From a bacterium (GTDB taxonomy: Bacteria; Zhuqueibacterota; Zhuqueibacteria; Zhuqueibacterales; Geothermadaptataceae): a stretch of 64,000 nt of DNA. The notes beneath the pieces were generated by a model, which was given only the letters and a program-made list of their open reading frames with translations, did not search any database and was not told where the DNA came from. Positions 11,439 to 21,693 of the stretch are shown here, piece by piece. The stretch is from assembly GCA_024275575.1 (NCBI GenBank), contig JAJRYV010000093.1:1-64000 (forward strand), read 5' to 3'. Each line of letters opens with the position of its first letter. The first letter of the stretch is position 1. Position numbers and translations under genes: made by a program.

Positions 11439-11517
11439 ATTTTCTAAAATGCCGGATTACTTTCAGGTTGAAAACGTAGCGGTGGAGGGGGAGAATGCTC
11501 AACAATTACATAAAAAC

Positions 11518-11523
11518 AAGGAG
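11518..11523 (+). promoter_or_regulatory. Ribosome binding site that fixes a TTG start for the epimerase
   Basis: AAGGAG lies 6 nt before TTG at 11530, in frame with the epimerase at the point where homology begins (IKQIDHIGIAV). The upstream ATG at 11449 has no such site. Confidence 0.8.
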
Positions 11524-11529
11524 TTGATT

Positions 11530-11937
11530 TTGATTAAGCAAATAGATCACATCGGGATCGCAGTGAAATCTCATGCGGCTCATCTGCCGTTTTATCGTGA
11601 TATTTTACAACTGCAGTTTCTCGGATATGAGGAAGTGGTAGAGCAAAAAGTCAAAGTCGCCATGCTGAAAGTGGGTGAGGTGAAAATCGAGCTCCTGCAA
11701 CCGACCTCTGATGACAGCCCCATCACAAAATTTATCGAGAAAAAGGGTGAAGGCATCCATCACATTGCTTTCCGTACGGATGACCTCGGCAAACAGATTG
11801 ATGAGCTCAAGTCACACGATATTTTGATGATCGATGACCAACCGCGAACAGGCGCCCACGGCAGCAAAATCGCCTTCATCCACCCGAAATCGACAGGCCG
11901 GGTGCTGATGGAATTATGCCAGTTGGGAGGGGCGTGA
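11530..11937 (+). CDS. mce: Methylmalonyl-CoA epimerase
   Basis: Interconverts (R)- and (S)-methylmalonyl-CoA. It is a glyoxalase-fold (VOC) protein of 135 aa when read from TTG 11530, the usual length. The motif order is typical: IDHIGIAV at the N-terminus (first metal His), KVKVAMLKVGEVKIELLQP, GEGIHHIAFRTDD (second metal His), and HPKSTGRVLMELCQ (C-terminal Glu ligand). It is the first gene of the decarboxylase operon, with the next ATG only 1 nt after its stop codon. It supplies the isomer used by the decarboxylase or the mutase; no mutase gene is in the window. Confidence 0.93.
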   Translation: MIKQIDHIGIAVKSHAAHLPFYRDILQLQFLGYEEVVEQKVKVAMLKVGEVKIELLQPTSDDSPITKFIEKKGEGIHHIAFRTDDLGKQIDELKSHDILMIDDQPRTGAHGSKIAFIHPKSTGRVLMELCQLGGA

Positions 11938-11938
11938 A

Positions 11939-13489
11939 ATGAGTCGGGAACGAAAAATTTTGGAACTCAAAGACCGGCAGGAAATTGCGAAAATCGGCGG
12001 CGGCCTGCAGGCCATTGAAAAACAGCACCAGAAAGGCAAACTGACAGCTCGCGAGCGTATCACGTTGCTGCTCGATGAAAACAGTTTTGAAGAAATCGAT
12101 ATGTTCCGCACCCACAACAATAACAATTTTGGGACGGCCGATAAAAAAGTCTTTGGCGATGGCATCATCACGGGTTACGGCACCATCGAGGGCCGGGCTG
12201 TTTTTGTCTATTCGTTTGATTTTACCGTATTTGGTGGTTCCCTTTCGCAGGTTGTGGCAGAAAAGGTCGTCAAAGTTCAGGAGATGGCCGCGAAGGTCGG
12301 GGCGCCGATCATCGGTATCAACGACTCCGGCGGGGCGCGAATTCAGGAAGGCGTCGATGCGCTTTCAGGTTACACCAGCATTTTTTTGCGCAATGTACTC
12401 TATTCCGGCGTCATTCCGCAGATCAGCGCGGTCGTCGGGCCGGCAGCCGGCGGTGCGGTCTATTCACCAGCGCTCACCGATTTTATTTTTATGGTGCGCA
12501 ATTCGTCGTTCATGTTTCTCACCGGGCCAAAGATCGTCAAAACCGTCACCCACGAAGAGGTCACGGCAAACGAACTCGGCGGTGCGGATATGCATGCGAC
12601 GAAAAGCGGTATCACCCATTTTACCTACGATGATGAACACACGCTTTTTGCCGGCATTCGTGAGCTGGTGAAATATCTGCCGCAGAATAATATGGAAGAA
12701 CCGCTGCTGCAGCCCAACGACGATCCGGTCGATCGCGTTGATGAAGAATTAAATTATATTATCCCCGACAATGCCAACAAATCGTACGACATGAAAGAAA
12801 TCGTTTTGAACGTGCTCGACAGCGGCCGTTTCATGGAAGTGCAACAGAGTTTTGCGCCCAATATTATCGTCGGCTTTGGCACGCTGAACGGCCGTACGGT
12901 GGGCATTGTCGCGAACCAGCCGAAGCATCTCGCCGGCGTGCTCGATAGCAACTCTTCGGTCAAAGCCGCGCGTTTTATCCGTTTTTGCGATGCTTTCAAC
13001 ATTCCGCTCATCACCTTTGAAGATGTGCCCGGTTTTATGCCCGGCACGATGCAGGAATTTAACGGCATCATCCGCCATGGCGCAAAAATGCTTTATGCCT
13101 ATGCAGAAGCAACCGTGCCGAAATTGACGGTGATAATCCGCAAAGCCTATGGCGGCGCCTTCTGCGTGATGAATTCCAAACAACTGCGCGGCGATTTCAC
13201 TTTTGCCTGGCCCTCCGCCGAAGTTGCGGTAATGGGGCCGGAGGGCGCCAGTGAAATCATTTTTTCCAAAGAGATAAAAGCTGCTGAAGACCCAAAGGCA
13301 AAGCTCGACGAAAAAATTGCGGAATATCGCGACAAGTTCGCCAACCCCTACGTGGCTGCCGGCAAAGGCATCATCGATGAGGTTATCGAGCCGAAATTTA
13401 CCCGCTACAAACTCATCAAAGCGCTGGAATTGCTCAAAACCAAGCGAGATGATAATCCACCGAAAAAACATGGAAATATTCCACTTTAG
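11939..13489 (+). CDS. mmdA: Methylmalonyl-CoA decarboxylase alpha subunit (carboxyltransferase)
   Basis: Carboxyltransferase of 516 aa that moves the carboxyl group of methylmalonyl-CoA to biotin. Both crotonase-like halves are present: GKLTARERITLLLDENSFEE near the start, NDSGGARIQEG and PAAGGAVYSPALTDF in the N-half, and EDVPGFMPG, RKAYGGAFCVM and FAWPSAEVAVMGPEGA in the C-half. Length and motifs fit MmdA and the beta subunit of propionyl-CoA carboxylase. The neighbouring gamma, biotin and membrane beta subunits decide for the sodium-pumping decarboxylase. Confidence 0.93.
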   Translation: MSRERKILELKDRQEIAKIGGGLQAIEKQHQKGKLTARERITLLLDENSFEEIDMFRTHNNNNFGTADKKVFGDGIITGYGTIEGRAVFVYSFDFTVFGGSLSQVVAEKVVKVQEMAAKVGAPIIGINDSGGARIQEGVDALSGYTSIFLRNVLYSGVIPQISAVVGPAAGGAVYSPALTDFIFMVRNSSFMFLTGPKIVKTVTHEEVTANELGGADMHATKSGITHFTYDDEHTLFAGIRELVKYLPQNNMEEPLLQPNDDPVDRVDEELNYIIPDNANKSYDMKEIVLNVLDSGRFMEVQQSFAPNIIVGFGTLNGRTVGIVANQPKHLAGVLDSNSSVKAARFIRFCDAFNIPLITFEDVPGFMPGTMQEFNGIIRHGAKMLYAYAEATVPKLTVIIRKAYGGAFCVMNSKQLRGDFTFAWPSAEVAVMGPEGASEIIFSKEIKAAEDPKAKLDEKIAEYRDKFANPYVAAGKGIIDEVIEPKFTRYKLIKALELLKTKRDDNPPKKHGNIPL

Positions 13490-13498
13490 GAGCAGATT

Positions 13499-13870
13499 AT
13501 GCTTGAAAATGTAGTCGCCAACAATGGATTAAATACGGCTTTCAGTGGCATGACCATCGTTTTTTCAGGGTTGGTGATCATCGCGCTGGCCATCCATTCT
13601 TTTAATTATATCTCCGCCTTTGTGAAAAAAAGGGGAGAGGCAAATACAGCGGCCGGCCCGGCCGGTGAAACGACGCCGGCTCTCGCTTTTATGGGCAAAG
13701 ATTTGGTGCCGGAAGATGAATTGGTGGCCATTTCCGTCGCTATCGAATTGTATCGCCGGCTACATTTTGAACATCTGCAATCGGAGATTACTTTTGTGCA
13801 TGGAGAACTGACGAACAGTGGCTGGAAAACAGGAATTAAATACGGTCAACGCCGCTCAATACCGAGGTAA
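13499..13870 (+). CDS. OadG-type gamma/delta subunit of the Na+-pumping decarboxylase
   Basis: A 123-aa protein with one N-terminal transmembrane helix (about residues 14-40, GMTIVFSGLVIIALAIHSF) and a hydrophilic tail. This is the layout of OadG/MmdD subunits that hold the complex together at the membrane. The tail includes LVAISVAIELYRR, a stretch common in these subunits. It starts 9 bp after mmdA and ends 5 bp before the biotin carrier gene. Confidence 0.85.
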   Translation: MLENVVANNGLNTAFSGMTIVFSGLVIIALAIHSFNYISAFVKKRGEANTAAGPAGETTPALAFMGKDLVPEDELVAISVAIELYRRLHFEHLQSEITFVHGELTNSGWKTGIKYGQRRSIPR

Positions 13871-13875
13871 TAAAA

Positions 13876-14352
13876 ATGAAAGAGAAAGAGCTCACGCTTG
13901 AAATAAATAACAAAGAATATAAAGTCATCATCGAAGATTTCACCGCACAAACCGCGGTGGTGAGCGTTAACGACAACCGTTATAACGTCAATTTGAAAGA
14001 CCTGGGCCTGGAGCAGGCGCCGCTGCTGAAGCCGGTTGTGTCTCCCCGGGCAGATGCGTTACACGCGGCATCGGCGGCCGGGAGCGCGGCAAAAAAACCG
14101 TTGCACCGGCCCAAATCTCTCGATGACGGTAAATCGATTACCGCGCCGTTGCCCGGACTCATCCTGAAGATTAATATCAAAGAGGGTGATATCATCCGGG
14201 CCGGGCAATGCGTCATGCTGCTGGAAGCGATGAAAATGGAAAATGAAGTCAACGCTACCTGCGGCGGTCTGGTGCTCGATATTCGTTTCAAAGAAGGGGA
14301 TTCGGTCAACCAGGGCGATGTTTTGATTCTTCTCAAACCGGTGGAGGATTAG
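13876..14352 (+). CDS. mmdC: Biotin carboxyl carrier subunit of methylmalonyl-CoA decarboxylase
   Basis: A 158-aa acyl carrier with the biotinyl motif EAMKMEN; the modified lysine is Lys120. An N-terminal beta domain (1-45) is followed by an Ala/Pro-rich flexible linker (about 50-85) and the C-terminal biotinyl domain (87-156). It shuttles carboxybiotin from MmdA to the membrane beta subunit. It is only 3 nt from the next gene, whose ribosome binding site (GGAGG) lies in its last codons. Confidence 0.93.
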   Translation: MKEKELTLEINNKEYKVIIEDFTAQTAVVSVNDNRYNVNLKDLGLEQAPLLKPVVSPRADALHAASAAGSAAKKPLHRPKSLDDGKSITAPLPGLILKINIKEGDIIRAGQCVMLLEAMKMENEVNATCGGLVLDIRFKEGDSVNQGDVLILLKPVED

Positions 14353-14355
14353 AGC

Positions 14356-15480
14356 ATGCACGTCATTTTTAAAATTGTTGGGACAACCGGTTTCGCCAAC
14401 ATGCAATGGGGCAATCTCATCATGATTGCGGTTGGTGGCGTCGCTATTTTTCTTGCCGTCGTCAAAAAGTATGAACCACTACTTTTGCTACCCATCGGTT
14501 TTGGCGTGATCATGGGTAATATTCCATACACGCCGGGTTTGCCTCTCGGCGTTTATGACGAAGGCAGCGTTTTCAGCCTGATTTACAAAGGTGTCACCTC
14601 CGGGCTGTTCCCGCCGCTGATTTTTCTCGGCATTGGCGCGCTGACGGATTTTTCCTCGCTCATCAGCTCGCCCAAATCGGTTTTACTCGGAGCGGCGGCA
14701 CAGATCGGTATTTTTGGAACCTATATCGGGGCATTAATGCTCGGTTTCAGCAATGCCGAATCCGCCTCCATCGGCATCATCGGTGGGGCGGATGGACCGA
14801 CTTCGATTTTTTTATCATCGCAATTGGCGCCGCAACTTCTCGGCCCCATTGCGATCGCAGCCTATTCTTACATGGCGCTGGTACCGGTCATTCAACCGCC
14901 GCTGATGAAATTGTTGACCACTGAAAAAGAACGTAAAATTCGTATGAAGCCGCCGCGCATCGTCACGAGACAGGAGAGAGTTCTTTTTCCGATTATCGTC
15001 GCTATTTTTGCTGCGTTGATCGCCCCGGGCGCCCTGTCTCTTGTTGGCATGTTGATGCTCGGCAATCTGTTGAAGGAATCCGGCGTCACCGACCGGCTGG
15101 CAAAAAGCGCCGGCAGTGCGCTGCTCGATATCTGCACGATTCTGCTTTCTTTTGCCGTGGGCTGCAGCACGCAATCGGCGGTTTTTCTCAATGCAAAATC
15201 TCTGGGAATTTTTGCCCTCGGCCTGCTGTCTTTTATGGTGGCAACGGTCGGTGGTTTGCTTTTTGCAAAATTGATGAATCTGTTTTTGAAAGAAAAAATC
15301 AACCCGCTCATCGGTGCTGCCGGTGTCTCTGCTGTGCCCGATTCCGCCCGGGTCGTGCAACATTTTGCTCTGCATTATGACAAGGACAACCATTTGTTGA
15401 TGCACGCCATGGCGCCAAATGTTGCCGGCGTCATCGGTTCGGCCATCGCCGCCGGTGTTTTTATTGCAATTTTTCGTTGA
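14356..15480 (+). CDS. mmdB: Na+-translocating decarboxylase beta subunit (OadB/MmdB)
   Basis: A 374-aa polytopic membrane protein that decarboxylates carboxybiotin and exports Na+. Family marks are WGNLIMIAVGGVAIFLAV near the N-terminus, the GADGPTSIFLSS motif with its essential Asp, and a C-terminal segment containing NPLIGAAGVSAVPDSARV. Nine or more hydrophobic segments are visible. It completes the mce-mmdA-gamma-mmdC-mmdB operon, which converts the energy of decarboxylation into a sodium gradient. Confidence 0.94.
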   Translation: MHVIFKIVGTTGFANMQWGNLIMIAVGGVAIFLAVVKKYEPLLLLPIGFGVIMGNIPYTPGLPLGVYDEGSVFSLIYKGVTSGLFPPLIFLGIGALTDFSSLISSPKSVLLGAAAQIGIFGTYIGALMLGFSNAESASIGIIGGADGPTSIFLSSQLAPQLLGPIAIAAYSYMALVPVIQPPLMKLLTTEKERKIRMKPPRIVTRQERVLFPIIVAIFAALIAPGALSLVGMLMLGNLLKESGVTDRLAKSAGSALLDICTILLSFAVGCSTQSAVFLNAKSLGIFALGLLSFMVATVGGLLFAKLMNLFLKEKINPLIGAAGVSAVPDSARVVQHFALHYDKDNHLLMHAMAPNVAGVIGSAIAAGVFIAIFR

Positions 15481-16066: not shown

Positions 16067-16213
16067 TCAATCCTGCGGTTTTTCTTCTTCCTTTTCTTTC
16101 TGCCCGACCGGGCAGGCGTCTCCCATTCATGTGGACACACCCATCATAGGTAAAATCCAGCGCTGCAGGGCGAACCAGAAAATGATAAATATTAAAAAAA
16201 AATAATCTTCCAT
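16067..16213 (-). CDS. Candidate 48-aa membrane selenoprotein (UGA at codon 29)
   Basis: On the minus strand an ATG at 16213 opens MEDYFFLIFIIFWFALQRWI, a hydrophobic segment, then LPMMGVST, a UGA (16129-16127), and in the same frame MGDACPVGQ and an acidic/basic tail ending at UGA 16069-16067. If the first UGA is read as selenocysteine, the product has one transmembrane helix and a U-x4-C pair (Sec29, Cys34) just outside it, a plausible redox motif. Exactly 11 nt after the UGA comes a 6-bp hairpin with a GGUC loop, the spacing and loop type of the bacterial SECIS in fdhF. The gene is about 95 bp downstream of plsX on the same strand with no terminator between. A weak AAGGA lies 14 nt before the ATG. 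I do not know a named family for it. The alternative is a 28-aa non-functional frame. Confidence 0.6.
16100..16126 (-). promoter_or_regulatory. SECIS-like element downstream of the in-frame UGA
   Basis: Read on the minus strand, 11 nt (16126-16116) separate the UGA from the hairpin CUGCCC-GGUC-GGGCAG (16115-16100). The stem is 6 G/C-rich base pairs and the loop begins with GG. Bacterial SelB-binding elements need the apical loop about 16-37 nt from UGA with a G among the first loop bases; here the distance is 17 nt. No T-run follows the hairpin, which argues against a terminator. Confidence 0.6.
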
Positions 16214-16309: not shown

Positions 16310-17404
16310 TCATTCTTTCCGGTCAGGTTTTTCCGGGGTATCCCCATTTTTTTCCGGTTTTTTGTCTTCGAACATTTTCAAGTAGAAATTTTTAATGGAT
16401 GCTTCCATCTGCGTTGTCAGTTTTGATCTGGCCGATTTTTCCGCCAGCAAAATAGCATTTTTGATCGCTTTGGCGTTGGAGCGGCCATGCGCTTTGATGA
16501 TCAGTTTTTCAAAGCCGAGAATGGGGGCGCCGCCATATTCGGAATAGTCGAGGCGTTTTTTTAATTTTTTCAGCACCGGCGCCAGCATGATGATGCCCAT
16601 CTTGGATAGCATGCTTTTTTTCCAGATACGCTTGCCGGTTTGCATCGCCATCTCCGCCATGCCTTCCATGCCCTTTAAAACGATATTGCCGGTGAGCCCC
16701 TCCGTCACGATGACGTCTGCAATGCCGCGCATGATGTCTTTCCCCTCGATATTACCGATAAAATTGAAATCAGACATGTTGCGCAATGTTTTATTGGTGT
16801 CCACCAAAACATCATGGCCTTTGGTCTCTTCCTCGCCGATATTCAGCAGGCCGACACGGGGATTGTCGACCGACAGGATGTTTTTCGCATAATGAATGCC
16901 CATTATCGCGAAGCTGATGAGTTGGTTCACCGTGCAATGCAAGGTCGCGCCCACATCCAGCATGATGGAAACCCCGCTATCCGTGCGCTGCGATTTTGAG
17001 GCAGGGAAAACAGCGGCAAGCACACCCCGTTCGATCCCCGGCAACCGCGGTATGTTCTTCGCACAGGCCAAAACGGTGGCGCCGGTGCTGCCGGCGCTGA
17101 CCAACGCATCGCCGATGTGGTCGCGGATCATTCGCGCCGCAACATTGATTGAAGCATCGATTTTTTCATTGACCGCTTCTTTCGGGTGATCATCCATCTC
17201 GATGACCTCGGAAGCATGTACGATGCGCCAGCGGCCCTGGGGAATGTTCTCTGCTTTTATAATGGGTTTGATTCTGTTCCGGTCTCCAACGAAAACGCAG
17301 AACAGAGAACTGCTCTCAAGACAAGCCTGTGCCGCACCTTTGATGATTTCCAGGGGCGCATTGTCACCTCCCATGGCATCTATTATTATTTCACTTAAGG
17401 CCAT
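16310..17404 (-). CDS. plsX: Phosphate acyltransferase PlsX
   Basis: Converts acyl-ACP to acyl-phosphate for phospholipid synthesis, as a peripheral membrane enzyme. The N-terminus IIIDAMGGDNAP is the PlsX signature. DDHPKEAV, SAGSTGATV, GVSIMLDVGA, LLNIGEEETKG and DVIVTEGLTGNIVLK follow in the expected order. At 364 aa it is slightly longer than usual, with a Lys/Glu/Pro-rich tail of about 20 residues. It is not next to rpmF, fabH or fabD, its common neighbours. The candidate selenoprotein gene follows on the same strand. Confidence 0.95.
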   Translation of the reverse strand: MALSEIIIDAMGGDNAPLEIIKGAAQACLESSSLFCVFVGDRNRIKPIIKAENIPQGRWRIVHASEVIEMDDHPKEAVNEKIDASINVAARMIRDHIGDALVSAGSTGATVLACAKNIPRLPGIERGVLAAVFPASKSQRTDSGVSIMLDVGATLHCTVNQLISFAIMGIHYAKNILSVDNPRVGLLNIGEEETKGHDVLVDTNKTLRNMSDFNFIGNIEGKDIMRGIADVIVTEGLTGNIVLKGMEGMAEMAMQTGKRIWKKSMLSKMGIIMLAPVLKKLKKRLDYSEYGGAPILGFEKLIIKAHGRSNAKAIKNAILLAEKSARSKLTTQMEASIKNFYLKMFEDKKPEKNGDTPEKPDRKE

Positions 17405-21451: not shown

Positions 21452-21693
21452 TTTTTGCCATCACTGCTATCGAGGATAAATCAAATGAGTAGATTTTGGG
21501 CTTCGCAGTTTATGAGATGGCCGGGGAAGAACGGCGTTTAGAAATCCTAAATTAATTGTTTAGCCACTAATTGGCGCTGATCGAACATAGATATTTCAAA
21601 ATCGGTGTTAGTCTGTGTGTATCCGAGGGTAAAAAAACAGTGGTATGATGTTGAAAATGAAAGTCATCTTTTTTTGAACAAGCGTATAATAAA

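Follow-up and report, generated by a model that had tools for sequence, protein, structure and literature searches.

Mammalian SELENOK and SELENOS are small single-pass membrane proteins whose cytosolic tail, flexible and charged, bears selenocysteine (Sec), and SELENOS makes a Sec–Cys selenylsulfide; both are eukaryotic, with the SECIS located in the 3′ UTR and Sec placed near the C-terminus. They were likened to the gene described here by layout alone, and homology was not claimed. Two families of small membrane proteins were also compared: (i) YgaP-like TM (DUF2892, PF11127), which displayed a helix followed by (F/L)G-I-(S/N)-T-C at the end and sometimes adjoined the selenoprotein gene or was fused to rhodanese, but had Cys instead of Sec and was longer, with an extra hydrophobic segment, and (ii) DUF6132 (PF19628), a frequent neighbor with the short Cys motif GCxSGxCPITSNP, but with a different sequence and layout and without Sec. 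Homology to DUF2892 was rejected (hhalign probability 1.9%, 9 columns). The bacterial selenoproteins of a 2026 inventory, whose table cites Haft & Tolstoy 2025 and Zhang & Gladyshev 2007, shared with the present gene a bSECIS-recoded UGA, a host with SelA/SelB/SelC/SelD, Cys homologues, and a redox-type motif; one inventory family with a UxxxxU motif, TsoB, was a rhodanese/DsbD-type protein (PMC13188914).

None of the 119 prokaryotic selenoprotein families in that inventory displayed the motif L-P-x-x-G-V-P-T-U-M-x3-C (PMC13188914). Comparison of 97 members of the present family with Pfam and NCBIfam (June 2026) gave no consistent match (best E ~0.002, to membrane-helix models), and the weak Pfam matches (Arabinose_trans and ATP-synthase-type helices) were rejected, the hydrophobic helix alone having matched; a PDB search gave no significant match, and a literature search found no earlier description of a small selenoprotein with the VPTU motif. 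The original prediction had called the gene a candidate undescribed selenoprotein, and this held in the sense that the family was unrecorded in Pfam, NCBIfam, PDB, and the 2026 inventory, probably because gene finders take its UGA as a stop.

The window, i.e., the whole 64,000-nucleotide stretch of contig JAJRYV010000093.1 (assembly GCA_024275575.1) that was analysed, contained the gene on the minus strand at 16067..16213. The frame, read from 16213 to 16067 (−), was MEDYFFLIFIIFWFALQRWILPMMGVST-UGA-MGDACPVGQKEKEEEKPQD-UGA, and it comprised 48 codons plus a stop (UGA, 16069–16067), giving a product of 48 aa with Sec at codon 29 (16127..16129); direct reading thus agreed with the predicted 49-codon minus-strand frame with an in-frame UGA at codon 29. 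The product was composed of a hydrophobic helix of residues 3–24 (16142..16207, a single membrane span), the conserved motif L-P-x-x-G-V-(P/S)-T-U of residues 21–29 (16127..16153), and Cys34 (16112..16114), the proposed resolving thiol of a U-x4-C pair. The upstream neighbor plsX (16310..17404, minus strand; PF02504, E=5e-97) was separated by 96 nt and lay outside the system: the position of the gene behind plsX was as predicted, but the linkage was found only within the window's genus, family members usually having no plsX next door (neighbor counts), and a function via a plsX operon was rejected on this ground. Elsewhere in the window, 11449–15480 on the plus strand held a sodium-pumping decarboxylase-type cluster composed of an epimerase-like gene, carboxyltransferase, biotin carrier, and OAD beta subunit (PF03977, E=3e-149), the genes other than the last being named from ORF sequences.

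A proposed test of the prediction was whether homologues conserve the sequence flanking the UGA on either side and carry Sec or Cys at that position; such homologues were found by translated, pattern, and profile searches. In the translated search of 99 genomes, almost all strong matches harbored TGA in frame at the corresponding codon, and in an alignment of 26 members found by homology, M1, L21, P22, G25, T28, U/C29, and C34 were invariant, one of the 26 carrying Cys (LGVPTCMSGHC). A degenerate pattern that accepted TGA, TGC, or TGT gave at least 116 loci, at least 105 of them with membrane helix plus motif, and 11 pattern matches lacking the helix were left out. A diverse set of 97 members, the majority of them picked by the motif itself, was invariant at P22, G25, T28, and U/C29; positions fixed by the pattern were conserved by construction in the pattern set since members were selected on them, while the choice among TGA, TGC, and TGT was free. 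According to record titles, the pattern set covered KSB1 (the window's own lineage), Deltaproteobacteria and Geobacter relatives, Thermodesulfobacteria, Acidobacteriota, Planctomycetota, Verrucomicrobiota, Spirochaetes, Armatimonadota, Gemmatimonadetes, Zixibacteria, Krumholzibacteriota, Latescibacterota, Myxococcota, SAR324, Obscuribacterales, Solincola, and CSSED10-310; the family reached at least 15 bacterial lineages of phylum rank, and two isolates carried it, Geomobilimonas luticola JCM 17780 (L056) and Thermodesulfatator autotrophicus S606 (L075). A search of plasmids gave no match, and the four pattern matches on viral contigs were all chance ones, none being a family member.

The family profile, matched by the window gene at E=2e-16, gave 73 matches in 290 genomes: (i) 52 in the window's phylum, where the Sec-site codon was TGA in 50 genomes, Cys in one, and TAA in one, and (ii) 21 in other phyla, each of which, when inspected, had TGA either at the Sec site or adjacent to it. 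Across the 165 distinct homologues listed, the site was TGA in 155 (~94% Sec), Cys in nine, and TAA in one. Among Sec forms, 89% had a Cys at +5; of 119 such forms, 111 had one no further away than +10, and the other eight had no Cys within 10 residues. The second Cys at the Cys34 position was kept in all nine Cys forms. Two deviating copies were observed: in L216 (G106:C66), the motif deviated to LPRFGIRPGUAPDTSC, its UGA having moved relative to Thr, and L218 (G032:C54, near 21471–21593) had TAA at the Sec site but was intact in other respects. Decoding of UAA as Sec in G032 was rejected because its tRNA-Sec had the anticodon UCA, and the TAA copy is therefore dead, truncated, or misread.

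The SECIS hairpin (16100..16115, minus strand) began 11 nt past the UGA (spacer 16126–16116) and was composed of a 6-bp stem, CUGCCC (16115–16110) and GGGCAG (16105–16100), closed by a GGUC loop (16109–16106). The published bSECIS model has a loop of 3–9 nt with G in the first two loop positions, a spacing of 16–37 nt, and an energy of −7.5 or below (PMC13188914), and the window hairpin fell within it (GGUC loop, 17 nt spacing, −10.1 kcal/mol). An Rfam search gave nothing near a gathering score. Taken alone, the window hairpin was unremarkable (MFE −11.6, z −1.1, 32 of 200 shuffles equally good), which, together with the single TAA homologue, counts in favor of an alternative in which the UGA is a true stop, so that only a hydrophobic peptide of 28 aa is made, and the hairpin is a terminator or arose by chance; the absence of a T-run after the hairpin argues against it. 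What made the hairpin remarkable was only its conservation across homologues. It was compared with a null in which codons were swapped for synonymous ones drawn from genes of similar G+C: a bSECIS hairpin was found at ≤ −3 kcal/mol in 143 of 154 Sec genes versus 55±6 in shuffles, and at ≤ −7.5 kcal/mol in 77 of 154 versus 12±2.6, while one of nine Cys genes had a hairpin at ≤ −7.5 and most Cys forms had none. Covariation over a 7-bp stem gave 57 doubly changed, still paired cells versus 19.7±3.3 in shuffled and 11–19 in slid controls, in a sample of 44 gapless sequences that were nearly all from the KSB1 lineage. The hairpin was thus conserved far beyond what protein constraint explains, with compensatory changes, and the predicted SECIS-like geometry could be read directly from the window and recurred, covarying, across homologues.

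The coding sequence on the two sides of the UGA bore further on the true-stop alternative. In 20 close pairs, pN/pS was 0.17 before the UGA and 0.21 in the 12 codons after it, so that, judged by these ratios, the codons past the UGA are under purifying selection. This, together with the conserved Cys at +5, the exchange of Sec and Cys, the co-occurrence with SelA (see below), and the use of TGA, not of TAA or TAG, by 155 of the 156 stop-bearing homologues listed, makes a true stop very improbable. Stop readthrough is known in other bacteria, and a reading of the UGA without SelB, either through near-cognate suppression or under a code in which UGA is reassigned to Trp or Cys, was weighed as well; it appears still more improbable, considering that the selenoprotein gene itself ends at TGA, that Cys was the sole replacement residue seen, and that the hairpin and Sec machinery were conserved together.

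Regarding the host, the original prediction named selA, selB, selC, and selD as genes to be looked for, and all four were found: the window's genome contained SelA, SelD, and, together on one contig, SelB and tRNA-Sec (UCA anticodon). The SelD gene (L280, G000:C75:49781-50704) harbored one in-frame TGA and is probably itself a selenoprotein; it therefore serves as an internal control that the organism recodes UGA. Among the 290 genomes, SelA was found in 70 of 73 with the family versus 95 of 217 without it (p=5e-17, ignoring kinship), and outside the window's phylum in 21 of 21 family genomes versus a base rate of 101/208 (p=8e-8). The SelA-less exceptions were G003 and G012, in which a canonical tRNA-Sec(UCA) was found, and G041, a 73% complete genome in which canonical tRNA-Sec was not found, the best match to the tRNA-Sec model (49 bits) being just above the cut-off and read by ARAGORN as tRNA-Ser; in G106, SelA was found and no tRNA-Sec was detected. 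The sequence features by which bacterial selenoproteins are recognised, namely a conserved UGA with Sec/Cys exchange, a bSECIS hairpin, and a host with SelA, SelB, tRNA-Sec(UCA), and SelD, were thus all present. The in-frame UGA almost certainly codes for Sec, and the predicted membrane selenoprotein gained strong support from the site, the SECIS, selection, the host machinery, and the tracking of SelA, all of it at the level of sequence. The ribosome would meet the UGA at codon 29, where the SelB–Sec-tRNA(UCA) complex recruited by the downstream hairpin would insert Sec, and translation would continue through Cys34 into the charged tail.

AlphaFold2 (97-row alignment) gave one helix at residues 3–24, in line with the single hydrophobic helix predicted for the first part, with a mean pLDDT of 86–90 over the first 20 residues and an unstructured tail. 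Composition by column displayed a charge bias, with a mean of +0.14/−0.89 in the N-tail and Lys/Arg past the helix. The protein is probably a single-pass membrane protein with N-out/C-in topology, given the acidic residues ahead of the helix and the Lys/Arg behind it (positive-inside rule).

Gene neighborhoods differed between phyla, and per-family neighbor counts (raw) were small outside KSB1. The genetic link to thioredoxin/DsbD was made up of one fusion and a minority of operons: (i) in L087 (537–1064), the homologue was fused to a thioredoxin domain (PF00085, WCAPC, E=6e-29) without the usual resolving Cys, and the partner thiol could therefore come from thioredoxin; (ii) the operons of the Cys forms L077 and L115 each encoded a DsbD-thioredoxin protein, and that of L077 additionally encoded thioredoxin and DUF6132; (iii) in L121, the homologue sat after a rhodanese-YgaP protein; and (iv) in L092, it was followed by DUF302 and a thioredoxin-2-type protein. 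Within KSB1, loci such as L035, L045, and L109 shared a recurring set of small genes, DUF6132 (GCxSGxCPITSNP), the selenoprotein, and an FmdB zinc ribbon, and many other KSB1 loci displayed a DUF72 gene upstream.

The fusion and the DsbD, rhodanese, and thioredoxin neighbors point to electron or sulfur transfer. Granted the selenoprotein reading, a thioredoxin-linked redox role is somewhat favored, and the assignment rests on a minority of loci because neighborhoods vary between phyla. The main rival is metal/metalloid binding or sensing, in which Sec29 and Cys34 would be ligands or a redox sensor signaling to FmdB/ArsR and not a turnover enzyme; its basis is an FmdB-type zinc ribbon as the immediate downstream neighbor at 32 of the 47 loci from the KSB1 lineage and at 7 of the 119 remaining loci, plus ArsR-family genes at nine loci and recurring cation efflux and RND/HlyD genes nearby (raw counts), but a regulator was absent nearby at many loci, and we consider this rival possible on the unlikely side. 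The redox relay is taken as most likely, and a single-pass membrane selenoprotein acting in a thioredoxin-linked selenol redox relay is, with moderate confidence and as read from sequence, the best explanation as a whole. We infer the topology, redox cycle, reductant, and substrate as follows: the T-U-M-x3-C motif would have a redox function at the membrane surface, Sec29 and Cys34 both lying on the cytoplasmic side; an oxidised substrate close to the membrane, be it a disulfide, persulfide/sulfane sulfur, or a peroxide, would be attacked by Sec29, after which Cys34 would resolve the Sec29 adduct by forming a selenylsulfide; its reduction by thioredoxin or by a DsbD-type carrier would complete the cycle.

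Outside the window's phylum, the family was found in about a fifth of the SelA-positive genomes sampled (21/101). It is about evenly balanced whether the family ranks among the more widespread selenoprotein families of bacteria and was missed, constituting a single-pass membrane class that moves electrons or sulfur between the membrane and the thioredoxin system; if so, it would have been overlooked owing to the shortness of the gene and to its UGA being taken for a stop. The prokaryotic selenoproteome gains a broadly distributed family, which suggests that short selenoproteins escape both gene callers and searches begun from Cys homologues, the latter because only ~5% of members carry Cys. 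The alignment, the motif, and the covarying SECIS provide means to search for others, and the gene is at hand in the two isolates. The family could also help explain why Sec machinery is kept in some genomes with few known selenoproteins.
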